Shown in pieces: positions 10,149-32,172 of a DNA stretch of 42,838 nt. The stretch is taken from positions 1-42,838 of the IMG/VR virus record IMGVR_UViG_3300021420_000069; one strand, written 5' to 3'. The notes under the pieces are model-generated. The model ran no database searches and had not been told where the DNA came from. It saw nothing but the letters and a program-made list of their open reading frames with translations. The DNA comes from a virus. The translations under genes were made by a program, and so were the position numbers. Numbering within the stretch: the stretch's first letter is position 1; the number at the start of each line of letters is the position of its first letter.

Positions 10149-10648
10149 GGCTGATCGCTCCCTCTGCCGTGCACCAATGCGTACGGTATGACGTGGCCGG
10201 TCTGCATATCGATCACAAGAATCTTACTGGCCGGGGGCGGGGTAGGGGGATTCACCCCGGTCCCACTGGCGAGCGTTGTGCCGCTCAATCCGGGCGTGAG
10301 CAGGCTGGTGTTCCCCAGATACTTCTTCGCCCGGACCCAGTAATACCGCTTGACGGCGGCCTGTCCCACGTTATCGAACCATTGGGCGCTGTCCCCGACG
10401 CCCTGAACGTTCGCCTGCGTGTTGTTGGCCGTGGCCGCCCACAACACTTCGTAGTAATCCGCCCCAAGGGACCGGGTCCACTGGAGGAGGTTCCCGAACG
10501 CCATGGGGGTAACTTTGAAGTTCGTGGGCGTGGGGAGGGGCTGCTGCGTTCCCCGTAGGCTCACCACCTGCCCCTGTAAGTCCTGTAGGAAGTCCCGCAG
10601 GTCCTTTGGAATCCCGACTGGTAATTCCCGAACTCCTCTAGTGCTCAT
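10145..10648 (-). CDS. Virion protein with fibronectin type III-like domain
   Basis: The 167-residue product has an FN3-like core at about residues 40-125 (PTNFKVTP..FGNLLQWTRSLGADYYEVLWA...YYWVRAKK) followed by a Pro/Gly-rich linker and a short C-terminal segment. FN3 and Ig-like domains are common decorations of tail proteins. It is coupled by ATGA to the tail protein upstream and by ATGA to the next gene. Confidence 0.7.
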   Translation of the reverse strand: MSTRGVRELPVGIPKDLRDFLQDLQGQVVSLRGTQQPLPTPTNFKVTPMAFGNLLQWTRSLGADYYEVLWAATANNTQANVQGVGDSAQWFDNVGQAAVKRYYWVRAKKYLGNTSLLTPGLSGTTLASGTGVNPPTPPPASKILVIDMQTGHVIPYALVHGRGSDQP

Positions 10649-16380: not shown

Positions 16381-17676
16381 CTAGATAGTAGGCGGAGCAG
16401 TTGCAAAGTTTGCAGGGACTAGGAGGTTTTGTAGACGCCCCCAAGCACTGCGTTGAAGGATTCCAACGTTGTGGTACCAGCGGAGCAGCCCTGCGACCGC
16501 GTCCGCGATACCGTTTGCACCAATGATGCGAGTCCAAGTCCCCGCCTCGTCCTCTGCCAGACTTAGCGGGATTGCCTCGAACTTCTTCATCATTTCGGTG
16601 TCGCCGTGGAAGATGCGGTCGGTCCGCTGGTCCTTGTCCTCGACCATAGGCAAGCCTGCGTAGTCGAAAACGTTGAAGCCCAGATCGAGCGCCTTCTTCC
16701 CAACCTTGGCCGCCGGACCCTCGTTCGTGATGTCAAAACGCAGGGTGGTCGTGGCAATGCCGATGTACTGGTTGATCTGCGCGGACGGCAGGAGGAAGAT
16801 ATTTCCGTCCACCCCGCCCCGGTTCTTGACAAACTGCCGCAACTGCTGGAGCAATTGGGAGCTAAGAGCCGCTGCCCCATTGTCGAACAGGTACGATTGC
16901 CAAGCCGGGAAGACGCCGGGGTCGATGCCCTGAACCACGCCACTGGAATTGACTAGGTTCTGGAAGCCGTTCGCCGTAAACCAACCATCATTGACGACGG
17001 CGAATTGGGGGTACTCCCCGGTAAGCGCGATGGCGTGGCCTGCCACGCTGGTTGCGGCCACGCTTACCACGCGGGTGGTATAGTTGATGGCCGTGATGGG
17101 AACGTTGACGAAGTCCGGAGCGCCGCCGCCGACCGGGATGGAGTCTACTGGCTGGCCGACGCGGAGATAAATCGCGCCGGGAAGTAGTCCGGTGTTGTCT
17201 GCAGTAAAGGACGTGTTCGCCACGATCGGGGCTGCGGCCTGAGCGAGTTGCCCGCCCGGTTCCGCACCGATTACCACCACATTCGCGTGGCTCACAATAT
17301 CCTTCATGTCGAATTTGGCTTCCAGCGCCTTCGCCTGCATGAAGGCCCGGGATTCGCCCTTGGTGAGGTTCTCGGCCTGCCCGGTAATAGTAATCGGGCA
17401 ATACATATACCGGAGGGTGACGGTGGCGTTGGTGAGGCCCTGATTGCCAGCCGCGCCCACGCCGGTCGTGCCTTCCGGCCTGTAGCCCAAGTTCCAATTC
17501 GGCTTGACGCGGGCCAGAAATACGTAGCCGCGAATGCCGACGTTGTTGATGGGCTTGCCGAACTTGCTCCCGTCGCCAAAAAGGTTCATTACTGCGGGCA
17601 GGGTAGATACCTGCTCTTGAATCGCACCATAGACGATCTTGGCATCGGGAAGGTAGGTCGTTGTGTCTACTCCCAT
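16381..17676 (-). CDS. Major capsid protein (HK97-fold candidate)
   Basis: The 431-residue product directly follows the scaffold gene in the leftward operon. Features include an N-terminal helical start (AKIVYGAIQEQV), PITITGQAENLTKG, a large beta-rich central insertion, and LPSAQINQYIG...FDITNEGP...FNVFDYAGLPMVEDKD near residues 320-365, a pattern usual for HK97-type capsid proteins of podoviruses. A GAGGGAG ribosome site precedes ATG 17676. It is expected to form the icosahedral shell together with the scaffold. Confidence 0.83.
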   Translation of the reverse strand: MGVDTTTYLPDAKIVYGAIQEQVSTLPAVMNLFGDGSKFGKPINNVGIRGYVFLARVKPNWNLGYRPEGTTGVGAAGNQGLTNATVTLRYMYCPITITGQAENLTKGESRAFMQAKALEAKFDMKDIVSHANVVVIGAEPGGQLAQAAAPIVANTSFTADNTGLLPGAIYLRVGQPVDSIPVGGGAPDFVNVPITAINYTTRVVSVAATSVAGHAIALTGEYPQFAVVNDGWFTANGFQNLVNSSGVVQGIDPGVFPAWQSYLFDNGAAALSSQLLQQLRQFVKNRGGVDGNIFLLPSAQINQYIGIATTTLRFDITNEGPAAKVGKKALDLGFNVFDYAGLPMVEDKDQRTDRIFHGDTEMMKKFEAIPLSLAEDEAGTWTRIIGANGIADAVAGLLRWYHNVGILQRSAWGRLQNLLVPANFATAPPTI

Positions 17677-17775: not shown

Positions 17776-18732
17776 TCAAGACTGGTAGCCGGACTTACCT
17801 TGTGCCCGGCGAATACTGTCAGGGTCATTAATCATTTCGTCGAGGGAAGGTTTCTTCCCCGGTTGCCCTCCCTGTGGCTGCTGGCCCGCGCCCGGACGGG
17901 GACCACCACCGACCGCCCCCCGTTCCCGCGCCGCTCTGGCTAGGTAGTATTTGTCGATCATCGTGACCGCCTCTTGGAACGCCTTCTGGATTCCAGCGGT
18001 CTTGCCTCCGAACTTGAGGTCCTTGAGGGCCTGTTCGTCGTATTTCATGATCTCGGAAGTGGCATTGGTAAGGAGAGCAACCTCGTCCTGACTCGCCTTC
18101 CCGATATCGATGCCTTCCTTGGTGAAGAGTTCCGCGATAAGCTGGTGGGTGGTGCGCTCGAATATCGCGTTGGCCTCGTTGGTGATGCGGAGGTTTTCCT
18201 GCTGCCGTATCGGACCGATGGCCTGATCGATTCGCTCCTGAATCTGCTGGGCGAGGTCCCGGTCGTCGCCTTGGTCCTGATTACCCCGTCCCTGCTGGCG
18301 TTGGAACGCCTCGTTGCGCAGGAAGTCGATGGTTGCGATAGGGTCTTCCTTGAGGGCCTCGACGATTTCGGCATCCGGGTACCCCAGTTCCCGGCCCAGC
18401 CCCCCCGCTTCTTGGAAAATCCGGGTGTAGACCCCGTGGCTGAGTTGAGCCGCGTCCGGCTGGATTCCCAGCTTCTCCCAAGGTTCGTACTTGGATTTCA
18501 GTCCGTCATATTCCTTGCGGAGGTTCTCGATGCCCGTCTGGCCCGGAGCCGGGGCTGCCGGTGTAGCTGGCGCTCCCCCGGGGGCAGGAGCGGCAGGCAC
18601 AGGGGGGGCACCGCCGCCTCCCGTCGCCCCCGCGCCGCCATCCCCGGAGCCTTGGGAACTGGCGGGGTTCGCTGGAGTGGCCCAGTACATCACCGGCCTA
18701 CTGCCAAACCATTTTGAAAATTGACGGTTCAT
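17776..18732 (-). CDS. Scaffolding protein
   Basis: The 318-residue product has a Pro/Ala/Gly-rich N-terminal third, a central highly charged helical region (about residues 65-275) and a C-terminus rich in Gly, Gln and basic residues. This composition and its place immediately upstream of the capsid gene are typical of podoviral scaffolding proteins. ATG 18732 follows a GGGGGAA site. No protease gene was seen nearby, so the scaffold may leave intact, as in P22. Confidence 0.78.
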   Translation of the reverse strand: MNRQFSKWFGSRPVMYWATPANPASSQGSGDGGAGATGGGGAPPVPAAPAPGGAPATPAAPAPGQTGIENLRKEYDGLKSKYEPWEKLGIQPDAAQLSHGVYTRIFQEAGGLGRELGYPDAEIVEALKEDPIATIDFLRNEAFQRQQGRGNQDQGDDRDLAQQIQERIDQAIGPIRQQENLRITNEANAIFERTTHQLIAELFTKEGIDIGKASQDEVALLTNATSEIMKYDEQALKDLKFGGKTAGIQKAFQEAVTMIDKYYLARAARERGAVGGGPRPGAGQQPQGGQPGKKPSLDEMINDPDSIRRAQGKSGYQS

Positions 18733-18763: not shown

Positions 18764-19453
18764 CTATTTGTCCCTACTCAATATGGACTTGACTAGACGG
18801 CGCTTGCGGAAGCCCTCGATGGAAACCTTGTCCCCCTTTATAAGCTGCTGCGCCTCAGGAAATTCAAGGATATCGTCATCCCACCAAGCCGTACAGATAT
18901 CCCCCGCGTTGACGGTATGCTGCAGCACCCGGCACGCACCTTGTTTGGACTCCCACTTCTCGCCCTTCGCCACCATGTAGTGGTCGCAATCGTCCCCGCC
19001 TTCCACGCCCCCGCAGTTGGCCCCACCGGACTTTTGCCCTCTCTCGGAAGCGTTGATCCAGATGAGGCCAACTGAATCGGGGGTATCAAGGGCGTCGTGA
19101 AACTTGACCTTATCGGAACCGGGGCCGTATTCGTGCATGGAGCAGCAGGGCCAGTATTCTATGGGATCGCCGCTGTCCCGGGACCCCGTGACCTTCTGGA
19201 CCTTTATATCCGGACCCAGCCTCTCGCAGGTCTTGTCCGGGTTCTGCTCCTTGCAGGTATAGCAGGACGCGGGCTTACCCCCCAATTCCTCAGCCGTAGT
19301 ATATAGGACCTGCTCGTCCCGGAGGATTGGCACGCCATAGAAGTCCGGCTGGGATTTGTCGCGGCGCATCGAGTCAATCTTGGGTAATTGTTCCTTACCG
19401 TACTCGACGAACCCCCCGGGTTCGGCTGCGGATTTGAGTTCATCCCTTCCCAT
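18764..19453 (-). CDS. Cysteine-rich hypothetical protein
   Basis: The 229-residue product starts at ATG 19453, which overlaps the previous stop (TAATG). It has about ten cysteines: CYTCKEQNPDKTC, WPCCSMHEYG, NCGG...DDCDHY, GACRVLQHT and DICTAWW. The clusters could bind zinc or an iron-sulfur centre or form disulfides. No signal peptide is visible, in contrast to the genes just upstream. The family was not recognised. Confidence 0.65.
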   Translation of the reverse strand: MGRDELKSAAEPGGFVEYGKEQLPKIDSMRRDKSQPDFYGVPILRDEQVLYTTAEELGGKPASCYTCKEQNPDKTCERLGPDIKVQKVTGSRDSGDPIEYWPCCSMHEYGPGSDKVKFHDALDTPDSVGLIWINASERGQKSGGANCGGVEGGDDCDHYMVAKGEKWESKQGACRVLQHTVNAGDICTAWWDDDILEFPEAQQLIKGDKVSIEGFRKRRLVKSILSRDK

Positions 19454-20286
19454 TACTGTGCCACCAGATTCGTTGGCGGCGCTGGAACATATATGGTCAG
19501 CGCCGGTGTAGACTCCACTGTCCCTGAGACGGCGGTCACGCCGTAGCAATAGTTTTGAGAACCTGTCACGGCGGTCAAATCGGTGTAAGTCAGCGCCGTA
19601 ACGCCTCCTACGAGCAGGGATTTAGCGAATGTAGTCGGGCACCCACCGGGGGCGCGATAGATATTATATTTGGTGCCGGTGGGATTGAGTAAATCCTTCC
19701 ATATAAGCGTGACACTGTGCGCGACAGTGGGAGACGATGTAAGCGAGATGGCGTCGAAGTTAGCCTGCAGGCCCGAATTGCTAAGCAGGATGATAAGATC
19801 GCCTGCGGGGACGGTGGCCCCAGTAGTGCAGTTCAACGTGGAGAGCGTATAGGTGCCAGCGGGGATGGTGGATTCGGTGACGTTAAGCGAGCAGAGTGGC
19901 GTGGACCCGATGAGAAGCTGGGCAATTGCTATGCCATTGAAGTTGTCGAGCCGGTTGCCTACATAGAAGGAAAGCAAATAAGTCGTGTTTGGCTGTGCCG
20001 GGATGCCCAAGTCCTGCGCGATGCTACCGATATTCAGGAACAGACCCTGCTTGCCGTTGGGGTAGGCAGTGAAGTAATTCGCACTTAGCGACTGTACGCC
20101 ACCATTCGAGCCGGATGCCAGTGTCCAGCCCGGCACGTTGCCAAATTCCCATGCGCTAAGGCCAAGAGCGGCGCCCCACGTAACGGGTGATTCAAACGAT
20201 GGGTTCTGGATGGGGATGGGGGTTTGAGCCGCGAGAGGTAGCGTGAGCACCAAGCAAAACAGCCCGAGTAGAATTGTGCGCTTCAT
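19453..20286 (-). CDS. Secreted-type protein: carbohydrate-binding-like domain plus FN3
   Basis: The 277-residue product starts at ATG 20286 with a strong AGGAGG site. Residues 1-20 are a Sec signal peptide (KR, hydrophobic core, AAQ). A galactose-binding/DUF642-like domain follows (NPSFESP...VPGWTLASG...LNIGSIAQDLG), then an FN3 domain at about residues 190-275 (HSVTLIWKD...TKYNIYRAP...YCYGVTAVSG). The style is that of secreted proteins in soil Gram-negatives such as Acidobacteriota. It sits in the virion operon, so it may be a fibre, a cell-surface decoration or an acquired host gene. Confidence 0.75.
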   Translation of the reverse strand: MKRTILLGLFCLVLTLPLAAQTPIPIQNPSFESPVTWGAALGLSAWEFGNVPGWTLASGSNGGVQSLSANYFTAYPNGKQGLFLNIGSIAQDLGIPAQPNTTYLLSFYVGNRLDNFNGIAIAQLLIGSTPLCSLNVTESTIPAGTYTLSTLNCTTGATVPAGDLIILLSNSGLQANFDAISLTSSPTVAHSVTLIWKDLLNPTGTKYNIYRAPGGCPTTFAKSLLVGGVTALTYTDLTAVTGSQNYCYGVTAVSGTVESTPALTIYVPAPPTNLVAQ

Positions 20287-20294
20287 GGTGCCTC

Positions 20295-22436
20295 CTATGG
20301 AATCCCAGCCTGAAATTGTAAGATATCCGTGCTTCCTCCAACCGGCGTGTTGGTAATCGTGAAACTCGCCCCTGTCGTAGTGCAAGTCGTTGTAACGATA
20401 CTGGTCGGGAAGGCGTTCGTTCCGCCAACGTCGGTAAGTGAGCAAATCGGAGTCACCGGAAACGCTATTGGAAAGACGATGGTAAGCACCTGCGGGGAAG
20501 ATGGCGTAGTTCCATAGGTGACTGTGAACTGCCCTTGCCGCGAAGCTCCGGTGACTGCGGATATGCACTGGCCAGCGGTTGCGCAGCCAGTACCGAAACC
20601 GGATGTTGGGGTGATATTCGAGGCGGCAAGAATCGTCCCAGTTACAGATGCCGCTCCGAACCACCCGCCAGCATTGTTGACGGCACCCGTAAAGATGTTC
20701 CCACCCTCATCCACGAAGGTGCTCCCAGCCAACATTTTGACGGAGTTGGTGCCTCCAGAGAACGTGCTATTGACCGCTTTAATCGTGGTGCCACCAAGAT
20801 TGTCTTTTACCCCAATACTCGTGCTTGCGCCCCCGATGAAACGGCTTCCATGCGCGTTGATGGTGCAGCCATTTGAAAGCACCGCAGATTGGGCTGTGGG
20901 GCCGGGAACGTAATCCCCGAACGAATTCCATACGACGCCACCGCTGCACAAAACCGATGCCGCCTGCCCGCCTACGAAGATTCCCAGGAATTGCGTGTTG
21001 TAACTGTTGAGGGTCGCGGAACCGAGTATGACCGACTCGCCACCGCCACAGAATACGTTCCATGCGGTGACATAGCTGGCGAATGAGCAAGGAACGGCAG
21101 GACCAGCGATGTTGACGTTCATCAGACTGGTGTTGGCGTTTGTCACCCCTTGCATGGAGACGCCGGTCATGCCCGTGCCGCCGAACTCAATCAGCGAGAT
21201 ATTCTGAAACGCTGACTCGAATTGCCCGACTAGTCCGAATGCGGCGGTGGAGTTGGTCAACGCCAGCCCAGCGCCGAAGATTGCGAAGCCTTCAAGGAAT
21301 TTCGACTGATCTCCTCCTGTGGTTTGTGGCACCGCGAACCACGCTCCCCCGTTTGCAAGCGTGGCATTCGTGAAATCGGTGGCCGGACTCAGTAAAATCA
21401 ATGTGCTGTTCTGGCCGCCCGCTCCGCGCACGCCGGTCCCCTGCATTACACCGTTGGGGGCGTTCACGCCTTGCTGACAATACCCGGTCGAGTTCTGAAT
21501 CAGGCCGTTAATGTAGATGCCACCGGCGGGAAGCAAAAGAAGACTGCACGGCATGGTGGAAGCGGCCACCCACGCTGCCTGCAGCGCAGCCGTGTTGTCG
21601 GTATGCGCCCAGACGAAGTTACACTGGCCGTTTGAGGCCGTGGAAGTACAGGTGGCGCTGGCGTTTTGAGCCGTAAGCCCATCGTTCTGGCACATGAAGA
21701 CTTGATGCGCGGTGATAGGTTGATTCGTGCAGATTTTCCCCAGCGGCATAACCGCTGAAGCGAGGTTGGAGATTACGCTGGTGCATTGATTGATTGTTCC
21801 GTAAGCGATGGACCCCGCATCGCTAGATAAGAATGGCTGTTCGGTAGAAAGCGTAGTTACCACATTCGACGCGTTCGTAAAGCTGGCCACGCAGGAGGCT
21901 TTGCCGTCGCCCTTGACGCCAAACTGCGCGGCGTCCGTAACGGTGCCCCAGCCGCCAGTCGCGGTAGTCAATACGCCGCTGCTGCACTGTAATAGTTGGT
22001 TCGTAACGGTATTGAAGTACAGGAACGCCCCGCTCGATGGGCAGGTAGGGTTCGTCGTCACCTGCGGTATGCCGTTAACATTGCTGGCGTACCAAGTTCC
22101 GGCGAATCCGTCGTACTGTAATTCGATGGCATTATTCGCGCCCGTAATAAGGGATGGAGACCCCGGAACATTTGACGGCCATGTCAGCGTGAACGTTCCC
22201 GGATTGATAAATAATTTGACTGTCTGGCCGCCCAGCCCGTTTATAATGGTGAGGGTAGCATTGGACGTGAGCGCGATCTTGAAGGCGCACGCGGACTGGG
22301 CAGCGCCGCCGAGGCCGCAGGTGGAGGCGTCCACCGTGATCACGCCGGCAGCGTTGGGGGTAAGAATGCTCTGACCCCGGGCAAACGGAGCGATCGCGAG
22401 TAGTAACAGTAATACGAGTTTTTTGGTTAGTTGCAT
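20295..22436 (-). CDS. Tail-spike-like beta-helix protein with signal peptide
   Basis: The 713-residue product starts at ATG 22436 after a GGAG site. An N-terminal signal peptide (TKKLVLLLLLAIAPFARGQ) is followed by a beta-rich adaptor-like region. Then AAQFGVKGDGK (about residue 175) marks the start of a pectate-lyase-type right-handed beta-helix with 'D..ALQAAW' and repeated GxGxxN turns, as in tail spikes that bind or cut polysaccharides. There are many paired cysteines. The C-terminal part (VTYGTTPSSPQVLTIVFP...) is beta-rich. Signal peptides are not expected on virion spikes assembled in the cytoplasm. Confidence 0.78.
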   Translation of the reverse strand: MQLTKKLVLLLLLAIAPFARGQSILTPNAAGVITVDASTCGLGGAAQSACAFKIALTSNATLTIINGLGGQTVKLFINPGTFTLTWPSNVPGSPSLITGANNAIELQYDGFAGTWYASNVNGIPQVTTNPTCPSSGAFLYFNTVTNQLLQCSSGVLTTATGGWGTVTDAAQFGVKGDGKASCVASFTNASNVVTTLSTEQPFLSSDAGSIAYGTINQCTSVISNLASAVMPLGKICTNQPITAHQVFMCQNDGLTAQNASATCTSTASNGQCNFVWAHTDNTAALQAAWVAASTMPCSLLLLPAGGIYINGLIQNSTGYCQQGVNAPNGVMQGTGVRGAGGQNSTLILLSPATDFTNATLANGGAWFAVPQTTGGDQSKFLEGFAIFGAGLALTNSTAAFGLVGQFESAFQNISLIEFGGTGMTGVSMQGVTNANTSLMNVNIAGPAVPCSFASYVTAWNVFCGGGESVILGSATLNSYNTQFLGIFVGGQAASVLCSGGVVWNSFGDYVPGPTAQSAVLSNGCTINAHGSRFIGGASTSIGVKDNLGGTTIKAVNSTFSGGTNSVKMLAGSTFVDEGGNIFTGAVNNAGGWFGAASVTGTILAASNITPTSGFGTGCATAGQCISAVTGASRQGQFTVTYGTTPSSPQVLTIVFPIAFPVTPICSLTDVGGTNAFPTSIVTTTCTTTGASFTITNTPVGGSTDILQFQAGIP

Positions 22437-24427
22437 ACCCACACTCCATTCAGACGCTTGGCTATAGCCCCGGTTCCGCTACCCGCACAGGGATTCGCGA
22501 TGGTACAGTTTGAGCAGAAGTACAGCGTGCCGTTCGCCGGAGTTCCGAGGTTGGCGAACACTACGGGTATCAATGTCGGTTGGGCCACATAACTTATGAC
22601 CGGTACATTCGGGTCCGTGCTGTACTCGGAAATCACCACCGAAGACCCCGGAGATAATATGCCACGTCCAGCATTTCCATCATTGATGAAACAGCCTGAT
22701 ATTCCACCAAGCTGCGTGTTTTTCACTACTAACGACACGCCACTCGCATTCTGAATCATGCACCTAGTGGACCCAGATTGGTCCGCGCCCAGCGTCAATC
22801 TTTCAATTACATCCGCATTGCCGTTCGATCCAGTTACTCCAACTACGGCTGTAGTTGTGTCGGAGGCGTTATCTTCCTCCGTGTAGATGTCATGGTAATG
22901 AGCAGCCGCGCTCCCGGTATTAAACTGAACAATGGCGACATCGTTCAATCCCGTGCCAGCGTTCGTACAACTCAGCGACCCGATGTTGCCACCGCCATTC
23001 ACGCTGGAATTATTGCCGAGAGTGCAGGGCGTCCCTACGTTATTAGCATTGCCTTTCGCTTGATCGACGATAGCGCTACAACATACATTCGTTATGCCCA
23101 ACGCCCTTCCAGATGAGACAAGACTCGAACCGCTGACGTTGACCACTCTACTGAGATCGAATAGTGATTGAATGTGCATTACAAAGCCGGAGATGGTTGT
23201 ACCTGCGACATCGGCGCAACTTATTCCCTCCATGTGAAGATAGGACCCGCCAACGCCCGGAGAAGGTTCCGTGCCGCACACGTCTATGACGTTTGCTGAT
23301 GAACTGGCAGTAATTATAAAGAGGTTTCCCTGCCCGGATGTTGTGCTGATGGCGGTGCTGCGGTCAAAGACTTGCAAGCACCGTGCGCCACCAGTGACGT
23401 TGCAGGTCCAAGCGCCGTAAGGAGGAAATAGCATCGTGACCGGAGTTCCGGCTCCCGAAGCGTGAGCGCCGACATCGAGTTCAGTTGAGTATATGTAGCT
23501 ATAAAGCGTTCGCACATCGCATGTCCCACCGCCTAACCCTAGTACCACCGTGTTGCAATGCTGCGGCGTGGCGAATGCCGTGCCGGGGGAGAGTCCGTCA
23601 TTGGAGTCACTACCCGCCCCGTCTACGTAACGATAGGCGGAAGCGGTGGCGTACTTTATAGCCCCGTTACCGGACGTGGAAACATTCGTCGCCGTAGCTG
23701 CATTACCGGTAGTGTTCGCACTATTGTTGGGGATGTCCCCGGACACCAGTGCCGGTAACTGCGAGTGGGCGAGAGACCCAGATAGGTCCGTGAACGCGGG
23801 CTGGGTACAGTTGGCGTTACCGGAAGCAGTGACACCCTTAGCAAATAAAGTGGCCCCACATTGGCTGGGGGCCGCCGCTAGCGCTGTTGCCGTCCCTGCG
23901 TTTCCCGCTGCATTCCCTGTTATGCTCCCTGCTATCGGGTTCGCGAACGTCCACGTGCCGTTCATGGTCGGGGAGCCGCCAAACGTCCCCACGATATTGC
24001 CCGGACCGTTCAAGCCGACCGCGTTAATGGTGGTGAAATTCGGACCAAGAATCTTGGCCGAAGGGTTGAGGGCAGCGGATACGTCTTGGCTTGCCCCCGA
24101 GATTGCAATAGGGGTGGGGTTGGAGAAGCACACAGCAACGGGGGTGGGGTTGCCGGTCGGGCCGATCTGGGTAGGCGGGGCGCAGATAGTAAAGACATAG
24201 GAAGCCGGGGAAGGAAGCACCATACTGAATGCCCCAAGATTGGAAGTGTTCGAATTCACGGGGGTGCCCGGGTTCTGGCCGAGGGGAACCTGCTTAAACG
24301 CCGAGGCCGTACCGGTGGCGTAGGGATTGCCATTCGGGTCCACGATGGTGCCCGTGACCGTGGTGGTCTGCCCGAACGCGGGAGCCACCCATAATACTAA
24401 TACGGCTAGAAGTTTGCGGAAGTCCAC
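22427..24427 (-). CDS. Tail-fibre or spike-like protein with signal peptide and beta-helix
   Basis: The 666-residue product starts at GTG 24427 with an AGGAG site. Residues 1-20 form a Sec signal peptide ending AFG/Q. A transthyretin-like or carboxypeptidase-regulatory-like domain follows (VTGTIVDPNGNPYATGTA), then a spacer region with NGPGNIVGTF repeats. A parallel beta-helix begins at YVDGAGSDSNDGLSPGTAFATPQ (about residue 275). The C-terminus is a small Cys-rich module, YFCSNC...NPCAGSG...RLNGVWVCN, also present in the 27152-27841 protein. It overlaps the preceding gene by 22 nt and the next by 10 nt. Confidence 0.75.
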   Translation of the reverse strand: MDFRKLLAVLVLWVAPAFGQTTTVTGTIVDPNGNPYATGTASAFKQVPLGQNPGTPVNSNTSNLGAFSMVLPSPASYVFTICAPPTQIGPTGNPTPVAVCFSNPTPIAISGASQDVSAALNPSAKILGPNFTTINAVGLNGPGNIVGTFGGSPTMNGTWTFANPIAGSITGNAAGNAGTATALAAAPSQCGATLFAKGVTASGNANCTQPAFTDLSGSLAHSQLPALVSGDIPNNSANTTGNAATATNVSTSGNGAIKYATASAYRYVDGAGSDSNDGLSPGTAFATPQHCNTVVLGLGGGTCDVRTLYSYIYSTELDVGAHASGAGTPVTMLFPPYGAWTCNVTGGARCLQVFDRSTAISTTSGQGNLFIITASSSANVIDVCGTEPSPGVGGSYLHMEGISCADVAGTTISGFVMHIQSLFDLSRVVNVSGSSLVSSGRALGITNVCCSAIVDQAKGNANNVGTPCTLGNNSSVNGGGNIGSLSCTNAGTGLNDVAIVQFNTGSAAAHYHDIYTEEDNASDTTTAVVGVTGSNGNADVIERLTLGADQSGSTRCMIQNASGVSLVVKNTQLGGISGCFINDGNAGRGILSPGSSVVISEYSTDPNVPVISYVAQPTLIPVVFANLGTPANGTLYFCSNCTIANPCAGSGTGAIAKRLNGVWVCN

Positions 24428-24879
24428 GTAATCGCTCCTGCGAGAGGCCCCGTTCCCGCCATAATGATACAGACGTTGTCACCGGCCACGGCGGTCTTGA
24501 GGACCATGCCGGAACCGGAACCGAAATTGACCGTTCCGTTGGCGGCCAAGCCTAGACCGGCAGCGGCGGTGGTGCCGCCGTCCAAGGCAAGAGTGTTGGT
24601 AGCGCACGTGGTACCGGTGCCCTCCACGATGGAAAAACTACTGCCGCCTATGGAGCCGAAGTTGTATCCGCAGACGTAGATGAAGTTGTTGGCGTTCCCG
24701 GCAGTAATGACCTGCAGGGAAGAGGCGGAGGAAACGGGCTTGGTCGTATCGCAGACCGGCATCGCGTTCTGTAGGGGAGCAGCGTGAACCATGGGAGGAG
24801 GACCGGGAACACCATAGACCGAAAACACTGCACCCAAGACTAAAACCGTGTATAAAGCGCACTTCAAGATGTCTTTCAT
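24406..24879 (-). CDS. Secreted-type small protein
   Basis: The 157-residue product overlaps the portal stop (ATGA) and has a GGGAGG site. The N-terminus is a signal peptide (KDILKCALYTVLVLGAVFSV) with a possible cleavage after VHA. The remainder is small, Gly/Ala/Thr-rich and beta-like with four or five cysteines (CDTT, YVCGYN, TTCAT, CIIMA). Family unknown. It is one of five adjacent late genes with export signals. Confidence 0.7.
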   Translation of the reverse strand: MKDILKCALYTVLVLGAVFSVYGVPGPPPMVHAAPLQNAMPVCDTTKPVSSASSLQVITAGNANNFIYVCGYNFGSIGGSSFSIVEGTGTTCATNTLALDGGTTAAAGLGLAANGTVNFGSGSGMVLKTAVAGDNVCIIMAGTGPLAGAITWTSANF

Positions 24880-27128
24880 TGGTTACCTCCCGGTGACTTT
24901 CCTTGCGAGGCCGTGGCCCCGGCGTTGCCTTGAACCTGTGACTGCGACTTCTCCCCCGGCTTGGCGTTCCCTTCCGCAGGGGGCTTGGGGGCGCCCTTCC
25001 CGGCGACCGCTCCCATCGCGGCTGCCCCTGCTGCTTGCTGCATCATCATGAGTTGCGTATTCACGATATGCTGGATGAGCAGTTCCTGATTAGGCTGTGG
25101 CCACTTCTTGAAGTCCTGTGACTTAGCTTGGTCCTTATGGAAGTACACGTGGATGGCCATGTCCTCAATGAGGGGCATGGGCTGAATCTGGGGAGGCGGC
25201 CCCATCTGGGAATTCCACGTCTTGAACTGCTGATTCTCGAGCCTGGCGTTGGTGGCGTCCTTGTTGAAGGACTTCTGCATGCCGGTTTCACCGAATAGTT
25301 CATAGACCCTGGAGCGGACGCCCGGGTCGGACAGGTCCAGTGCTCCCTTGTCCCACATGGTCATCATTTCCTGCCGCTTCTCGTCCCGGGTCTTCGGCAA
25401 TCCATGTGTGGTCGCGATGAACTCTATCATGGAGTTGAGGTCGGCGGACTTGAAGGCCCGAATCTCCGCCTCCAGCCCCGGGCCGACTATGCGGCCTATC
25501 TGCTCGAACGTGAAGTAGAACTGTATGAATTTCACGTACTTCCGGATGGTTTCGCAGGCCCAGTCGTTCCAGTTCTTGACGGGCTTGGAGAACATGAGTT
25601 CGGCCTGACCCCGTAGTTGTGCAATCGCGGCGGCAGCCGTAATAGCGCCTTCCTGCTCTCCTCTAAACGCGTTGACAGCCATTGAGATGTTCTGGAATTC
25701 AGCATGCAGATTGTCGCGCTGCTTGTAGATTCCATCGTCGAGATGGCCGCTGCCCATTCGGTGGGGCGGTTCACTATTAGGGCCGATGGCCCGCCACTTG
25801 ATGACCTTGTCTGAACGGCCAGTAATTTCCGTAACGATGGTATTCGCATCAACCACGATGGGGTCCACCGCCGCAACCATGGCATGAAGCTTGATAACGG
25901 ACTCATAGGCATTAAGCTCCCGCTGAATTTCGACGAGGTCGAACCCGATAGAACGGGGGAAGAAGATCGTAGGGAGGGTGAGGTAATAAGCGAACGTGAC
26001 CGGGTGCTCGGGGAACTTCCACTCCTCGGTGAAGGCGGGCTTGTCGTTGATGACGACCTGATAAAATCCGTCCGGGAAGTCCTTAAGCTTCTTCGGGGGG
26101 ACGTACATTTCCAAGGTCATGCAGGAATCCTTGACCTGAACCGTACTATTACTATAACCCGTATACCAGAAATTGAGGGCGTGCTCGTAGGTGACGGCAT
26201 AACCGTCCGGCCAGACGGCGTCCGGCTGGGCTTCGAAGTCCCACATATACCAGATCATGTCGGTGGGGCGTCGAATGGCCCAGAGCAAATACGGGGAATC
26301 GTCCATGGTATTGGCCCCGGGCCGGGGAAAGGCCCCGAGGTTGGACTCGATGCGGAGGGATAATTCGTAGGAGGAAATGTCCTCCATGAGGGGCTGGCCC
26401 TGCTCGTCCTGCATCGGCGCGACCACTTCCGAATCCTCGGCCTCGACGGGCTGGCCGCACCCGGGGCAGAATGCCGGTGGCTCCTCCCCAATGGGGACCT
26501 GATTCCAGCGATCGCAGGTGTCGCACATGTACCCCTTGGTCGGTTGTGCGCCCTTCTGCTGCTGCTGTGAATTGGAGGACTTGACCTGTATGATGGAGGC
26601 GAGGCCACCACAGAGGACGAAGAGGTTGGCGGCTAATCCGGCCCTGTCGCCGGAAGTGCCGAACTGCTTCTTGAGACCCTCCTTCTCCGAAACATAAGCG
26701 GCCAGCTTCGTGGCGACCCTTGCCACCATGGAGGATTCGGGGTCGAGATCGTCATTCTCGGCCTTGGGGGAAGCCTCTACCTCCGGGAACTGATAAATAT
26801 TGGAAGTGACGGCATCGACGGTCGGGGAGAACCGATTAATGCGGGGGCGAGGAACCCACTCGTCCGTGGGCTGCTGGGGCTGCCAGACCTTCCGGGCGTC
26901 ATCCCAGTCAATCCACGACTGGTTGGCGTAGAAGAGAAGGGCCTGCCAGATCGACTGATGGTATACGATATAGGCGTTCTTGAGGTCCGTCCAAGTGTCC
27001 TGCGTCTTCTGCAGGGCCTTCCCTTGGTCTAGCCCATTCTGATTGGATACACCCGAGTCGGTGTTATCCTTCTGGCCGTCAGCGGACCGGCCAAACGCCC
27101 CGCGCACGGCTTGGAGAAGACCGCCCAT
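24876..27128 (-). CDS. Portal protein (P22-type candidate) with zinc ribbon
   Basis: The 750-residue product starts at ATG 27128 with a GGAGG site. It matches podoviral portals in length and layout: N-terminal helical region (SWIDWDDARKVWQPQ), PRPRINRFSPTVDAVTSNI, FDLVEIQRELNAYES stem-like helix, and a C-terminal Gln/Ala/Gly tail (from about residue 690). A zinc ribbon, CDTCDRWNQ...FCPGCG, is inserted near residues 200-225. The portal forms the 12-fold ring through which DNA is packaged by the terminase encoded about 4 kb upstream. Confidence 0.85.
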   Translation of the reverse strand: MGGLLQAVRGAFGRSADGQKDNTDSGVSNQNGLDQGKALQKTQDTWTDLKNAYIVYHQSIWQALLFYANQSWIDWDDARKVWQPQQPTDEWVPRPRINRFSPTVDAVTSNIYQFPEVEASPKAENDDLDPESSMVARVATKLAAYVSEKEGLKKQFGTSGDRAGLAANLFVLCGGLASIIQVKSSNSQQQQKGAQPTKGYMCDTCDRWNQVPIGEEPPAFCPGCGQPVEAEDSEVVAPMQDEQGQPLMEDISSYELSLRIESNLGAFPRPGANTMDDSPYLLWAIRRPTDMIWYMWDFEAQPDAVWPDGYAVTYEHALNFWYTGYSNSTVQVKDSCMTLEMYVPPKKLKDFPDGFYQVVINDKPAFTEEWKFPEHPVTFAYYLTLPTIFFPRSIGFDLVEIQRELNAYESVIKLHAMVAAVDPIVVDANTIVTEITGRSDKVIKWRAIGPNSEPPHRMGSGHLDDGIYKQRDNLHAEFQNISMAVNAFRGEQEGAITAAAAIAQLRGQAELMFSKPVKNWNDWACETIRKYVKFIQFYFTFEQIGRIVGPGLEAEIRAFKSADLNSMIEFIATTHGLPKTRDEKRQEMMTMWDKGALDLSDPGVRSRVYELFGETGMQKSFNKDATNARLENQQFKTWNSQMGPPPQIQPMPLIEDMAIHVYFHKDQAKSQDFKKWPQPNQELLIQHIVNTQLMMMQQAAGAAAMGAVAGKGAPKPPAEGNAKPGEKSQSQVQGNAGATASQGKSPGGNQ

Positions 27129-27151
27129 CAGCCCTCCGGGCTACGATTCGG

Positions 27152-27841
27152 TTAGAAGCAGCGCCAAGCGCCGGAAACGCGGACGGCAAGGTCCACGCCA
27201 GCCCCGGAGGTGCAGGTCGCGGAACCGGTGGTCAGGACGGTGCAGGAGGTGCATATCAGCATGCCGCCGTCCGCATAGGTGGAGGGAAGGTTCGCGAAGG
27301 TGGACTTCGCCAACATCTTCGCTGCCGGGAACTGGGCGACGGACCGCGAATCGGTGATGGTTGCGCAGGTAGAAGCCCCGCAGACCACGGTTGCGAGAGG
27401 AATCTCGACGCCGGGAATGGGATAGAGGATGGCGTTGGGAACTCCGGGGCCGTTAAGCTGAGAAGTGCCGAGAGAGCCGGGACCGGTCACGGCGGTCTTG
27501 GCGTAGACCAAAGTCTGGGGGCAGTTGAATACGATCAGATAGGTGGTATTGGCAAGCAGGTTGAGAACCGATTCGGAGATATTCTCCTCTGCGCCGGAAC
27601 AGAACACCGGTCCGCCATCCACCTGTATGGAGAGGTTAGCCCCGGGGTTAGTAACGGTCCCGGCAGCGCCGGTCGTGGTAGCAAGGGCAGCGAAGGTAAC
27701 GGCGGGAGCAGCGAAACCGGGAACGAAGGTCGATCCGTACTGAGCCGCGACCGATTTGGGATGGTGAAACCCGCCAACGCCAATAATGACGGCAAGGGCG
27801 AGGATTACAGATAAGGCTACGACTCGATTAATGCTTCGCAT
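27152..27841 (-). CDS. Secreted-type protein with C-terminal Cys module
   Basis: The 229-residue product starts at ATG 27841, which is preceded by a strong AGGAGG site. Its N-terminus is a signal peptide or anchor (RVVALSVILALAVIIGVGGF...SVAAQ). The body is beta-rich (TTTGAAGTVTNPGANLSI). The C-terminus carries LICTSCTVL...CTSGAGVDLAVRVSGAWRCF, the same C-x-x-C...R-x-x-G-x-W-x-C tail as the 22427-24427 protein. It lies directly upstream of the portal gene in transcription order. Function unknown. Confidence 0.72.
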   Translation of the reverse strand: MRSINRVVALSVILALAVIIGVGGFHHPKSVAAQYGSTFVPGFAAPAVTFAALATTTGAAGTVTNPGANLSIQVDGGPVFCSGAEENISESVLNLLANTTYLIVFNCPQTLVYAKTAVTGPGSLGTSQLNGPGVPNAILYPIPGVEIPLATVVCGASTCATITDSRSVAQFPAAKMLAKSTFANLPSTYADGGMLICTSCTVLTTGSATCTSGAGVDLAVRVSGAWRCF

Positions 27842-28100
27842 TTGGTATATCCTCCTTAAAAGGTTTCTTGTCGAACCACCCGGAACTTTTCTCAACGGGG
27901 ATGGGGGGACGCGGTAGAATCAGGCCCTCCACCCCGGATTTGGCCGCGACCGCCTCGGTCAGCCGGTCTATCCGCTCCTGCTGGGAACTGATGATTGACC
28001 GGTAGTGGGCGCACTGGCGATCGGCGTGCACCACCATAAAAAAGGACGCACCCACGACGGTAACGATCAGTAACACCACCAGTGCGGTCACGACCACCAT
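27828..28100 (-). CDS. Small membrane-anchored protein
   Basis: The 90-residue product begins with a single membrane helix (VVVTALVVLLIVTVVGASFFMVV) followed by a probable helical segment (SSQQERIDRLTEAVAAK) and a Pro/Lys-rich tail. Its start overlaps the upstream stop (TAATG) and it overlaps the next gene by 14 nt. No family recognised. Placement in the head-gene region is unusual for a lysis protein. Confidence 0.65.
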   Translation of the reverse strand: MVVVTALVVLLIVTVVGASFFMVVHADRQCAHYRSIISSQQERIDRLTEAVAAKSGVEGLILPRPPIPVEKSSGWFDKKPFKEDIPNAKH

Positions 28101-28459
28101 TAGAAGTCCGCGCCTTCCTGATGGGCGGCCCCGGTGAAGGGTGCCCCGGCACCGATATGCATGCCGTGTCTTCCCCCGCCCTGCCCGAAATAATTCGGCT
28201 TCTTGAAGCCGTTCCCACCGAAGTGGGTCTTGTTGACCATGTCCCCCTTAAGAGTTCCGCCTTGGGAGCGCTGGGTCTTCATGAGGGCGCGTTTGAACCC
28301 GTGCGAGGAATGAGGATTACCCGCAATGGCCGTAGAAGTAACGCCCTGCTCCGCTCCGGTGCCTCCCCGCTGAGGGGCACCGGCGGAGGCGCTGAAATCG
28401 GCGGGGTTAGACCGGAACCCGGACCCGCTATCGTCCTGAAATCTGTTGGACCCGTCCAT
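28100..28459 (-). CDS. Gly/Ser/His-rich small protein
   Basis: The start is taken as ATG 28459, which has an AAGGAAGGTGGAG site; an extension to 28510 exists without one. The 119-residue product is low-complexity, rich in Gly, Ser, Asn, Phe and His, and probably disordered. It resembles the other low-complexity protein at 29391-29957 in style (FxxxSGSG, GGG, basic residues). Function unknown; both may be minor virion or assembly proteins. Confidence 0.6.
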   Translation of the reverse strand: MDGSNRFQDDSGSGFRSNPADFSASAGAPQRGGTGAEQGVTSTAIAGNPHSSHGFKRALMKTQRSQGGTLKGDMVNKTHFGGNGFKKPNYFGQGGGRHGMHIGAGAPFTGAAHQEGADF

Positions 28460-28763
28460 GCTCCACCTTCCTTTCAAGATCGTCGAGAACCTTGTCAGAG
28501 GGACCGTCAACCCCCCGCATCAGGACCATGAAGTCCTTAAAGACGGAAACGGTATCGGCCCCTTTGCCGTCTTGCCCAAAGGGCAGTTTGAACTGTACGG
28601 TAACGAAGCCGGGAGTCAAGGCCCCCTTCGGCATGCCCTCCGTCCGGTCGGGTAGGCCCCCCGGTTCGATATCCGTGACCTCGACCGGCTGATCAAGCTT
28701 CCCCCAGTGCATGAGAATTCCCTTGCGAATCGGTTCCCCGTAACGATCGACTGGCTTGCTCAT
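28428..28763 (-). CDS. Hypothetical late protein
   Basis: The 111-residue product starts at ATG 28763 overlapping the upstream stop (ATGA). It has a beta-rich, barrel-like first half (GEPIRKGILMHWGKLDQPVEVTDIEPGG), then FVTVQFKLPFG and a helical charged C-terminus (KVLDDLERKVEHGR). No family recognised. It overlaps the following gene by 32 nt. Confidence 0.65.
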   Translation of the reverse strand: MSKPVDRYGEPIRKGILMHWGKLDQPVEVTDIEPGGLPDRTEGMPKGALTPGFVTVQFKLPFGQDGKGADTVSVFKDFMVLMRGVDGPSDKVLDDLERKVEHGRVQQISGR

Positions 28764-29146
28764 ATAGATATTTGAGGCCGCAGGGGCAGGGTGAACATTA
28801 CCCCTGACTGCTCGGCGGCCTTCTCCCCCCTGACGAATTTTAACATGTTGGTATTGGACGGGTCAACCAGAAAGATCGCGTCCAAGATGGAGTGCTGGCG
28901 GGCTACGGCATCGGCCAAGGCATAGGAGCAAAGAGCCGACGCCACAAGGCGTCTACTGAGACCCGAGCCGCAGTGAAATTCATGGAGGAAGGCGTAGGGA
29001 CGCCAGACAAGACAGGCAAAGGGGGAACCCACCGGGCCAGCAACAACGATGCGGTCGCGTTCCAGACGGACATCCCCTGCCCGATTATCACCCAGTATTC
29101 GGTCAAGTCCAACAGCGTCCTCCGAGCGGTAGAGTCGGGCAATCAT
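28760..29146 (-). CDS. GNAT-like small protein, candidate
   Basis: The 128-residue product has features of the small phage GNAT fold: an N-terminal 'IARLYRSEDAVGLDRIL' helix, a strand 'RIVVAGPVGSPFACLVWRP', a helix 'SRRLVASALCSYALADAVA', and 'AIFLVDPSNTNMLKFVRG'. The acetyl-CoA-binding R/Q-x-x-G-x-A motif is not clear, so it may be non-catalytic. It is coupled by ATGA on both sides. Confidence 0.5.
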   Translation of the reverse strand: MIARLYRSEDAVGLDRILGDNRAGDVRLERDRIVVAGPVGSPFACLVWRPYAFLHEFHCGSGLSRRLVASALCSYALADAVARQHSILDAIFLVDPSNTNMLKFVRGEKAAEQSGVMFTLPLRPQISI

Positions 29147-29382
29147 GCAGCGTGATATTTCCTCTCGAACACGTCCTTGGGGTTGAGATAAACATACCCG
29201 TCTGATTGGGTAACGACGTAATCCCCCGCGACCGGCGTCATACGGGCAAGCATTCCACCGTTCGGAGAGTATAACTTCCCGCTCTCCAACTTGAGAACCA
29301 TTGGTTGCTCGCTTGTCGCGGGTGAAACGACCCCCACGATCTTTTCTGCGTCTACTTCTACCGGATTCGCGATATATTTCAT
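29143..29382 (-). CDS. Small conserved-style phage protein
   Basis: The 79-residue product contains ANPVEVDAEKIVGV and ARMTPVAGDYVVTQSDGYVYLNPKDVFERKY, a pattern frequent in small proteins near terminase and portal genes of phages. It is preceded by a GGGGGAGA ribosome site. No biochemical function is known to me. Confidence 0.75.
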   Translation of the reverse strand: MKYIANPVEVDAEKIVGVVSPATSEQPMVLKLESGKLYSPNGGMLARMTPVAGDYVVTQSDGYVYLNPKDVFERKYHAA

Positions 29383-29390
29383 GTCTCCCC

Positions 29391-29957
29391 CTAAGTATTT
29401 GAAGTAACCGGTGCGCCTCCGTAGGCTCCCTGCGCAGACTCGGAACCGCCGCCCCTTGCGCCCATGGCGGCCCGCTTGAACCGCCCCGCGATAAGCTTAT
29501 AGGACCGGCCAGACGTATTACCTGCCCCGGGGGAAGGGTTGGAATTCGGATAGTCGGACAGGCCGTCGTTCTGCTGGCCGCCGAAAGCGGACCCCCGGGA
29601 GCGCTGGTCTATGGAACCGCGATGCTGGGGGGAGCCGCCGTGGCCGGGGACTCTGGCCTCGGGGCGCATTGCCCCCCCTCTTGCCTCCCCCGGGAACCCA
29701 CCCCGCGAGGCCGGGTTCCCGGAGCCGGACCGTCCACCTCGCATGGAGGCGTGGGCGGATGCCTTCTGGCCATGATGGCCAAACCCCCCGCGTTGCTTAG
29801 GGGGAATGCGACCGGAGCCGGAACCCTGCCGGGGACCCCCGCCGCCGTTCGGGTCCGGGAAGTTATGCTTGGAATCGTTCCCCGGGATAGACATGGGGTT
29901 ATCCCCGCTAGATTTAATGCTTACCACGGGGTAGCGGGGTTTCATGCTAGCCGCCAT
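29391..29957 (-). CDS. Gly/Arg/Ser-rich low-complexity protein
   Basis: The 188-residue product is about one quarter glycine, with repeated GRSGSG, GGFGHHG and RGGFPGEARGG blocks, and is basic and probably disordered. ATG 29957 has an AAGGAG site and overlaps the preceding gene by 11 nt. The style recalls RNA- or DNA-binding RGG-type tails, but no family was recognised. Confidence 0.6.
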   Translation of the reverse strand: MAASMKPRYPVVSIKSSGDNPMSIPGNDSKHNFPDPNGGGGPRQGSGSGRIPPKQRGGFGHHGQKASAHASMRGGRSGSGNPASRGGFPGEARGGAMRPEARVPGHGGSPQHRGSIDQRSRGSAFGGQQNDGLSDYPNSNPSPGAGNTSGRSYKLIAGRFKRAAMGARGGGSESAQGAYGGAPVTSNT

Positions 29958-30338: not shown

Positions 30339-30514
30339 TACTGGCCTCCAAATGCTCCGGTTCCGGATAATCCGATATCGATGGCGGTCTCCGCAACCTC
30401 TTCAAGCGCGTGACCGATCTTGTGGAAGAAATGCTTATGACAGTGCGGGCATTCCACCTCCACCGGTGCCGGTGTTGGGATTTTGGTTTCGACTACTGGT
30501 TTATCAGTGTCCAT
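30338..30514 (-). CDS. Very small zinc-finger-like protein
   Basis: This 58-residue gene is coupled to both neighbours: its ATG at 30514 overlaps the terL stop (TGATG), and its TAA at 30338-30340 overlaps the next ATG. A strong AGGAGGGTAA site precedes it. The product contains CPHCHKHFFH, a possible C2-H2 mini zinc finger, then an acidic helical stretch (ALEEVAETAIDIGL). Function unknown. Confidence 0.7.
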   Translation of the reverse strand: MDTDKPVVETKIPTPAPVEVECPHCHKHFFHKIGHALEEVAETAIDIGLSGTGAFGGQ

Positions 30515-32172
30515 CAGTTTACCCTCCTAGGGAACCACGTTCCCGTGGAATCCCCTGTCCCCCCGGGGAACCACTGGTTCTCATCGGGAACGGTGCCGAA
30601 TTTGGCGGCCCACCGCTCGTGCGCCCTGTGCGCCACCTGCGAGTGAGTATTCATGGTGACGATATCGGTCGCGGTGAACCTCGGCGGTTCCGGGCGGGAC
30701 ATGGCCACGTAGCGGACGTTATCTATCCAGTGGTCGGAGCCGACATACTTGAACCCCCCGGCAGACGTGACCGTCTTGCGCCATCCGATTAGCTCCTTAA
30801 TCCCATTTCGATTATGATCAGCCACAATAAGGATGCTAGGAGAACCACGTACCCCGGTAAGAGGGTGAATGTGAGTGGGCTTAACGTGAAAATACTCGCG
30901 AAGCAGATTAATTCCAGATTCAAGAGCGTTCCAAGCTGGAATGGTGGGAATTCCACACCTTTGGTATGCATCTTGGGTGCTCCACATCTCGTTCTTGGAC
31001 TGGAGGGTCTTTGCCTGCGTGGACGGGTCGATGAGAATGTATTCAAGGGCCTTGGTGGACCAATGGACGGTCTTATCCGTCTCAGCCAGCTTCTTGGTCT
31101 GGTCCGTGCGCCCGCACCGGTCTACCCATTCATCCAGCAGCTTCTTGATTCCCTCGGAATGCTCCGTAATGAGCCGGTTCTTCTCGTAATACTCCCCCAA
31201 CACTATTAAGTTCGCATCCGGGTCTATGCCCATCAGAACGAAGGCCACCGTGCCAGTTGTTGCATGATCGAGTGACGCAACGAGGGTAAGTCTTGCAAGG
31301 TAGGCAGGGGGCGGCATTGGAATACAGTGAGTGTTGCGGTCGAATTCCTTGAAGACTTGGCCTTCGCTGGCTTCCCATGAGCCTTCGAGGTATTTCTTGA
31401 CCCAAGCCGTTGGGATATCCTTCTGGTTCCGGAGCAGGTCTTCCCAATTCGGCGGCAGGTACGGGTTATCTCCCGGTAGCGCTTGGATATAAATTCGTCG
31501 TCCATCAGATACCACGGGAGAGTTGGGAGAGGCCTCGCGAATGAGGTGGCCGAAATGGTCCTCCAGCCACCCCGGCTCAGGGTTAGTTCCCAGCCATGCC
31601 TGATAGGGCGGGCAACTACCATCGGGCAGGGTCCAGCGCAACTGGGCCATAAGCTGTAGATAAGTCTCACGCTCGATTTCAGACGGCTCATCGATAGCAA
31701 TTGCGCCGAATTCCTTACCTTTGGCTGATTCGACTTCATTGATATCCCCCAATCCGCCGTACACTATTTCGGTCGGGTATTTGGGATTCCATGTCCGGAG
31801 CGTTATGATGTGGTCGGTCTTGTGATGCCGCAAGATTAAGTCCGGGGGGCACATCTGGGAGAAGGTAACAAGGGTGCTGCCCTTTAGGTCTGTCAAGTCC
31901 TTGCGGAATAGGCCGATACGATTACCCGGGATAGCGCAGACAACCATAATGATCTTGGCACATAGGGCACGAGACTTTCCAGAGGACTTGGACCCGCCAT
32001 AGAGTTGCTCCGATTCGGCTGCGGATAGAAATTTCCACTGCTTGATCGAGGGGGGCTTACCTATGGAGAGGGGGCGGCCATTATAATTGATAATGAGCGG
32101 GGGACCCACGCGGGGGTCGGCCATAAGCTTAGTGGGGATAGTACTAATTGTGGCCTCCCCTGCGGCAGGCAT
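30514..32172 (-). CDS. terL: Terminase large subunit
   Basis: The product is about 552 residues from ATG 32172; ATG 32124 is an alternative start. It has the packaging ATPase Walker A GGSKSSGKS, Walker B IAIDEPSEIE, and LGTNPEPGW as a coupling motif. The nuclease half contains SLDHATTGT, the usual first Asp of the RNase H-like fold, and a later EYILIDPS and SPSILIVADHNRN with further acidic residues. It drives genome packaging through the portal. Parts of the gene use AT-richer synonymous codons than neighbouring genes. Confidence 0.92.
   Translation of the reverse strand: MPAAGEATISTIPTKLMADPRVGPPLIINYNGRPLSIGKPPSIKQWKFLSAAESEQLYGGSKSSGKSRALCAKIIMVVCAIPGNRIGLFRKDLTDLKGSTLVTFSQMCPPDLILRHHKTDHIITLRTWNPKYPTEIVYGGLGDINEVESAKGKEFGAIAIDEPSEIERETYLQLMAQLRWTLPDGSCPPYQAWLGTNPEPGWLEDHFGHLIREASPNSPVVSDGRRIYIQALPGDNPYLPPNWEDLLRNQKDIPTAWVKKYLEGSWEASEGQVFKEFDRNTHCIPMPPPAYLARLTLVASLDHATTGTVAFVLMGIDPDANLIVLGEYYEKNRLITEHSEGIKKLLDEWVDRCGRTDQTKKLAETDKTVHWSTKALEYILIDPSTQAKTLQSKNEMWSTQDAYQRCGIPTIPAWNALESGINLLREYFHVKPTHIHPLTGVRGSPSILIVADHNRNGIKELIGWRKTVTSAGGFKYVGSDHWIDNVRYVAMSRPEPPRFTATDIVTMNTHSQVAHRAHERWAAKFGTVPDENQWFPGGTGDSTGTWFPRRVN

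Follow-up and report, generated by a model that had tools for sequence, protein, structure and literature searches.

Predicted Sec signal peptides on candidate tail-fibre and receptor-binding proteins encoded around the portal gene of a soil phage

We analysed IMG/VR record IMGVR_UViG_3300021420_000069, a soil phage sequence of 42,838 nucleotides (the window), with a focus on five genes around the portal gene, here called A to E and read on the minus strand, whose products begin with predicted Sec signal peptides and resemble tail fibres or receptor-binding proteins (RBPs). Gene A (27152..27841, 229 residues) lies directly upstream of the gene for a P22-like portal protein (24876..27128; phrog_156, E 2.1e-15), which lacks a signal and frames the block, and is followed beyond it by gene B (24406..24879, 157 residues), gene C (22427..24427, 666 residues), gene D (20295..22436, 713 residues) and gene E (19453..20286, 277 residues). 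Gene A starts with ATG at 27841 behind the ribosome-binding site (RBS) AAGGAGG, gene C with GTG at 24427 behind AGGAG, and gene E with ATG at 20286 behind GGAGG. The ATG of gene B at 24879 overlaps the portal stop, and gene D starts with ATG at 22436, with a GTG at 22442 as an alternative. Overlaps join the portal gene to B, B to C and C to D; D and E almost abut, and E passes into the following gene through TAATG. Because overlapping or adjacent starts and stops tie genes A to E into one string with the portal gene, they are probably late genes, made together with the virion proteins.

All five leaders combine a positively charged n-region, a hydrophobic core and a rule-based A/G-x-A/G site with small residues at -3 and -1. 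Predicted cleavage would leave Q at +1 in gene A (MRSINRVVALSVILALAVIIGVGGFHHPKSVAA; 27743..27841, 33 residues, PKSVAA/Q), gene C (MDFRKLLAVLVLWVAPAFG; 24371..24427, 19 residues, APAFG/Q), gene D (MQLTKKLVLLLLLAIAPFARG; 22374..22436, 21 residues, PFARG/Q) and gene E (MKRTILLGLFCLVLTLPLAA; 20227..20286, 20 residues, LPLAA/Q), and A at +1 in gene B (MKDILKCALYTVLVLGAVFSVYGVPGPPPMVHA; 24781..24879, 33 residues, MVHA/AP). Re-reading of the minus strand thus upholds an earlier note on this DNA, which had reported Sec-type leaders on five genes and Gln directly behind the site in four of them. A stricter whole-genome signal scan missed genes D and E owing to the choice of start. With a cleavage rule blind to the +1 residue, Gln followed the site in 32 of 52 block proteins from the window and its relatives, against a background of 3.5%; the nominal P of 1e-33 is overstated because the sequences are related, and is indicative only. 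The stronger point is the invariance of Gln34 amid divergent leaders: present at +1 in all 15 homologues of gene A (family A), it occupies one of only 14 invariant columns in an alignment whose mean column identity is 38% and whose leaders vary in length and sequence. The block is also rich in cysteine, which makes up 58 of 2042 residues (2.84%) versus 25 of 4633 (0.54%) in the window's remaining likely virion proteins, an enrichment of approximately 5-fold (Fisher P 2e-13). No lipobox Cys was found on inspection of the five leaders, and no later hydrophobic segment in genes A, B and C, which the screen covered. A lipoprotein anchor was rejected on the missing lipobox, and neither mark of a surface-anchored superinfection-exclusion lipoprotein, a lipobox or a lasting membrane anchor, appeared within that scope. 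At the level of sequence, the predicted export signals of the five genes are confirmed as real, beyond chance.

The residue behind the cleavage site also bears on the host. Portal and capsid alignments against 84,980 species genomes returned no relative in genome contigs. Among signal-like proteins without later membrane segments, Gln stands behind the candidate site in 35 of 62 (56%) on the Granulicella tundricola plasmid pACIX901 (NC_015057; L044-L063) and in 5 of 29 (17%) on S. meliloti pSymB. Gln at +1 in the block, together with the Granulicella preference, thus fits an acidobacterial host. The plasmid displays a habit resembling the Q-rule outside Bacteroidetes; the published rule concerns Bacteroidetes, values being low in the adjacent phyla that the study included (PMC5837995), and is defined by Gln at +1 of most signal peptidase I sites in a Bacteroidete host with glutaminyl cyclase (Bochtler 2018). 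A CarboxypepD_reg-like domain, of the kind found behind the gene C signal, is abundant on the Granulicella plasmid too, and a plasmid search with an approximate, consensus-like acidobacterial TonB-plug query gave no match.

Inspection of gene A points to an RBP fold. Family A was modelled with AlphaFold2 from 15 sequences, and the core of the model mostly exceeds 75 in predicted local distance difference test (pLDDT) score. In comparisons with solved structures, this core, a shoulder-like beta domain at residues 59-168 (27338..27667), superposes on the cyanophage A-1(L) tail fibre with Z 11.5 and a root-mean-square deviation of 2.1 Å over 85 residues at 24% identity. Other matches include the phi812 baseplate, the lactococcal p2 and 1358 RBPs, BPP-1 Mtd, the HFTV1 fibre, SPP1 gp22 and TssK; the first 21 matches are exclusively phage or type VI secretion system baseplate proteins, after which Z drops to 2.9. 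Viral models in BFVD concur (Mtd-N, minor tail, RBP, tail fibre). This docking domain was found in gene A only, by fold and not by sequence. A PDB search with the gene A profile gave a single non-significant row (E 0.42), a single-sequence pattern from a sub-range of gene A found no relatives in viral contigs, and tblastn in phages found no match. At least two different C-terminal modules follow the family A core, the one in the window being an exchangeable Cys module.

The larger block proteins show a comparable modular build. Gene C places a confident beta-sandwich right behind its signal, at residues 20-128 (24044..24370) of what would be the mature protein, conserved in 6 relatives and scoring pLDDT 88-96 in most 10-residue blocks, with a lowest block of 73. 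The sandwich is CarboxypepD_reg/transthyretin-like, with a CarboxypepD_reg-like match below the curated cut-off; the fold is common to many extracellular proteins, so that Z values up to 9.4 are not diagnostic. A fibre-like middle, a beta-rich tip and a C-terminal Cys module follow. The tip region (22577..23599) is 60% identical over ~341 residues to part of a 1478-residue signal-bearing spike of phage L104, a correspondence that is a putative domain swap, and L104 has three consecutive fibre-like genes that bear signals. The Cys module (22430..22660) is 46% identical to the end of a 1254-residue signal-bearing fibre of the siphophage-like MW202444, encoded directly behind a tail gene, in which the last 77 residues of gene C recur. 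A tblastn search with gene C recovered only this C-terminal end in phages and no match in plasmids; a PDB sequence search gave no match, and a Foldseek comparison of the whole gene C model with viral models was uninformative.

Gene D, which is Cys-rich like gene B, carries the tailspike-type motif FGVKGDG...DNTAALQAAW...PAGGIY, read by eye, and a single-sequence pattern found no gene D relatives in viral contigs. Gene E combines an HpiC1-like jelly roll (PF22825, E 1.6e-22) with an FN3-like tail. The earlier note had assigned gene E a carbohydrate-binding-like domain and an FN3 domain; the former is recovered as the HpiC1-like match, and the latter is plausible by eye. For the two beta-helix spikes that it proposed, here taken as genes D and C, the hints are the gene D motif and weak strands in the low-confidence part of the gene C model, and neither gene matches a beta-helix family in Pfam. 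PHROGs and Pfam left most block proteins without an assigned family, and Pfam detected no S74 or MAT-type domains among them. A conserved N-terminus with an exchangeable tip, as in tail fibres and RBPs, emerges from the module comparisons of genes A and C. The assignment of the block proteins as tail-fibre or receptor-binding proteins thus draws support from fold, position and domain swapping.

Searches with the portal protein yielded ~18 related IMG/VR contigs, and capsid searches a few more. The earlier note had proposed looking for the same block in related phages, and signal-like starts indeed recur around the portal gene in these contigs. In every relative whose contig spans the position, a gene A homologue with a signal-like start lies directly before the portal gene or one gene further, and usually one to four signal-bearing open reading frames (ORFs) lie directly behind it. 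The major capsid protein (16381..17676, minus strand), which has no signal, shows 90-92% identity in a comparison of five full-length relatives, whereas the block is hypervariable in gene number, length and sequence, as expected of genes that would encode receptor-binding functions. In G001, G002, G003 and G006, where genes above 120 residues were read by eye, all large fibre- or spike-like genes recognised bear signals and no large signal-free spike-like gene was seen. Signal-bearing spike-like genes also occur at the far end of the virion cassette (G006 23563 and 24957, G003 19159, G001 33036). Small FN3-type or nozzle proteins could also act as receptor binders in the relatives.

Several further features of the group were observed. 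The portal protein is only 56-66% identical among relatives, an unusual conservation contrast with the capsid protein. Scaffold homologues (17776-18732 in the window) share a conserved hydrophobic N-terminus resembling MIKHLLSYLLFCGTMFAAGAPA (L003 4857, L005 12517, L012 6143, L013 12886, L016 13809, L019 5321, L024 11027), and a hydrophobic leader also occurs on some capsid ORFs (L006 19591, L033 4960). Membrane-linked head assembly is a possible reading of these leaders. Recombinase- or integrase-like genes in relatives (L016 4068-4538, L005 2250-2717, G003 30406-31485) suggest that part of the group may be temperate; none was recognised in the window.

Cultured phages of acidobacteria present a similar picture (PMC11924767; PP887698, PP885685, PP885688). 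Tunturi_1 and Tunturi_2, podophages of Tunturiibacter, have among their tail genes a stretch of six consecutive genes, five of which encode proteins with signals. In Tunturi_1 these five are gp12, gp13, gp14 ('tail spike protein'), gp16 and gp17 ('virion structural protein'), and one is named 'tail fiber protein' in Tunturi_2; leader differences between the two phages preserve the signal (gp17: LLATSLAGA versus LIAASFAGA). The jumbo myophage Tunturi_5 has a run of six such genes (gp337-342), of which three are annotated 'tail fiber protein' and a fourth 'virion structural protein', and most of the signal-bearing block proteins of Tunturi_1 and Tunturi_5 have Gln at +1. Tunturi_5 gp342 (L126 16889-20449) is a signal-bearing fibre with GDSL esterase and laminin-G domains, likely a glycan deacetylase carried on a fibre to judge from its predicted domains. 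Fibres are signal-free in Tunturi_3, which infects the same strain as Tunturi_1 and Tunturi_2, in Tunturi_4, and in the Bacteroidota phages crAss001, B40-8 and FCL-2. The idea that Q-rule hosts force signals onto fibres was rejected on these five phages, which makes signals on fibres a trait of particular phage lineages.

Given these observations, we favour, with a probability of roughly 0.6, the reading that the block proteins are exported fibres or RBPs of a podovirus-like phage that join particles outside the cytoplasm. Of the options raised in the earlier note, virion proteins reaching the particle by an unusual route is the best supported, by the RBP fold of gene A, the swapping of tips, the lack of a large signal-free spike in the relatives read, and Tunturi_1, Tunturi_2 and Tunturi_5. 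Each block protein would be synthesised late, from a translationally overlapping gene string shared with the portal gene. Its Sec signal peptide would take it across the inner membrane, and signal peptidase I would then cleave at A/G-x-A/G to expose a Gln that the host may convert to pyroglutamate by cyclisation. The Cys-rich, beta-rich chains would fold and form disulfides in the periplasm. At or after lysis, the spikes would meet DNA-filled heads and attach to the tail by N-terminal domains of the shoulder type, which would complete the infectious particles. The leaders strongly support the predicted first step and the cleavage site of the second; export, cleavage, pyroglutamate, disulfides, virion presence and attachment at lysis in vivo we infer. 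Late attachment is chemically plausible: P22 morphogenesis in vitro, starting from heads and base-plate parts, has been described (Israel, Anderson and Levine 1967, as cited in PMC3741392), and T4 assembly steps proceed in extracts (PMC9576892).

Several points weigh against this reading. The signals were called by our own n-h-c rule, which is crude and puts some sites in the wrong place. Mean pLDDT is only 65 in the model of gene A, and the gene C tip scores mostly below 60 and has no confident model. In contig L013, the gene A homologue is the sole signal-bearing gene beside the portal gene. The Tunturi protein names were given by depositors from similarity and not from particles, and we found no virion proteomics for the window group or the Tunturi phages in the accessible literature. 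The host does not demand export, because Tunturi_3 grows on the same strain with signal-free fibres, and the host of the window phage, probably an acidobacterium, is itself one that we infer. We know of no parallel in tailed phages for a periplasmic RBP that meets cytoplasm-made heads. On balance, we lean narrowly towards a broader reading as well, in which certain tailed phages that infect diderm soil bacteria finish their particles beyond the cytoplasm (Sec export, periplasmic disulfides, attachment only at lysis) and the trait arose in several unrelated lineages: the window's group, L104, MW202554, MW202444, Tunturi_1/2 and Tunturi_5.

Exported fibres might also act twice, first at the host surface, by occupying receptors or cutting exopolysaccharide, and then on progeny that pick them up at lysis. 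All evidence for export and RBP identity is shared with this extension of the favoured reading, and enzymatic domains such as the GDSL lipase of Tunturi_5 gp342 would suit it. We hold it tentatively, as a doubtful addition, since the proteins should stay periplasmic unless they cross the outer membrane. The secreted coat, depolymerase or decoy proposed in the earlier note may survive as a second role.

That the proteins are secreted and never enter virions is the main rival reading, and an unlikely one. The infected cell would export adhesins or glycan-active proteins that cover its surface, hinder or shed receptors as a form of superinfection exclusion, weaken exopolysaccharide before lysis or serve as decoys. 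The real RBP would then lie elsewhere, for instance in the nozzle or in a small FN3 protein (10145-10648) that weakly matches central tail fibre J. Genuine signals and high Cys content agree with secretion, domains of the HpiC1-like, GDSL, laminin-G and CHB_HEX types would fit glycan-active proteins that are secreted, and surface modification has been proposed for the Q-rule proteins of P. gingivalis phages (PMC10367356). However, gene A has a shoulder-type docking domain, tip swapping is typical of RBPs, and several such proteins are deposited as tail fibres or spikes in cultured phages. The large spike-like genes recognised in four relatives are all signal-bearing, which leaves only small non-spike candidates for host binding.

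Less probable still is that the N-termini stay uncleaved and hold the fibres in the particle or membrane, or that only a fraction is exported while cytoplasmic chains assemble normally. The h-region of family A is long and might act as an anchor, and in relatives the scaffold gene and some capsid genes have hydrophobic leaders too. Against this stand the invariant predicted +1 Gln behind divergent leaders, the Gln preference shared with Granulicella, the lack of a suitable internal start just behind the gene C signal and the confident gene C sandwich that begins within a few residues of the site; the conserved A-x-A/Gln boundary, with mature domains close behind, disfavours the particle anchor offered in the earlier note. 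An artefact of chance hydrophobic starts or wrong start codons, to which a crude rule that also flags a few genes outside the block might lend itself, is close to negligible: the starts chosen have good RBSs, such leaders return at matching gene positions in ~18 relatives and occur in cultured phages, and the Gln at +1 is conserved.

In the textbook account, tailed phages are assembled entirely in the cytoplasm. If the favoured reading is true, these phages use a second assembly route, one that would explain disulfide stabilisation of their fibres and tie the infectivity of progeny to the Sec and signal-peptidase machinery of the host. Acidobacteria are abundant in soil and their phages little known; a signal peptide with Gln+1 on a spike gene could serve as a sequence marker for RBPs of their uncultured phages, and the cultured Tunturi_1, Tunturi_2 and Tunturi_5 make the idea of export directly testable.

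Two features lie elsewhere in the window. A PurZ-like synthetase (19-1224; phrog_1211, E 6e-49; NCBIfam PurZ 1.3e-44, below cut-off and behind PurA-type PRK04293), a DatZ-like dATP triphosphohydrolase (4669-5265; phrog_7076, E 2e-25) and a DUF1599/MazG-like gene (42013-42516) suggest that the phage DNA may contain 2-aminoadenine (Z). An ORF with UDG4 and 3'-5' exonuclease domains (1933-2934) overlaps the DNA polymerase A ORF (2739-4334) in the +2 frame, which splits the exonuclease domain. The same split recurs in G001 (27263-28330 and 28201-29733), which makes a sequencing error improbable; the split is more likely genuine and would reflect a programmed shift or two proteins.

Comparison with known systems places the block among partial parallels. 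The closest are Tunturi_1/2 gp12-gp17 and Tunturi_5 gp337-342, which like the window have consecutive large, Cys-containing, signal-bearing fibre or spike genes in the virion cassette. Tunturi_1 differs in having no significant sequence similarity to the window block and in the place of its block, behind the tail-protein gene instead of the portal gene. The crAss001 cluster gp21-gp26 encodes tailspikes and fibres in the same slot between portal and capsid genes; unlike the window block, its proteins lack signal peptides and contain 0-1.3% Cys. The P22 tailspike is a podovirus tailspike that is added to heads, and is cytoplasmic and without a signal. The A-1(L) tail fibre, the p2 RBP and BPP-1 Mtd share their core fold with gene A, which unlike them begins with a Sec signal and ends in a Cys-paired module; none of the three is known to be exported. 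We found no description of exported tail spikes or fibres of tailed phages in the open-access literature, and the term signal peptide is absent from the main text of the Tunturi report (PMC11924767). Temperate phages of P. gingivalis encode five signal-peptide proteins of unknown function that obey the Q-rule; like the block proteins, they carry phage-encoded signals with Gln+1 fitted to the host signal peptidase, and unlike them they are not described as fibres or spikes (PMC10367356). Among bacteria, the mosaic adhesive trimer (MAT) proteins of Bdellovibrio offer a counterpart of exported phage-like fibres (PMC10769870). In these adhesins, as in gene C, the signal peptide leads straight into a conserved beta domain, with a variable tip beyond it. 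They differ in being bacterial proteins and in having S74 or other solved tips, of which none were detected in the block.

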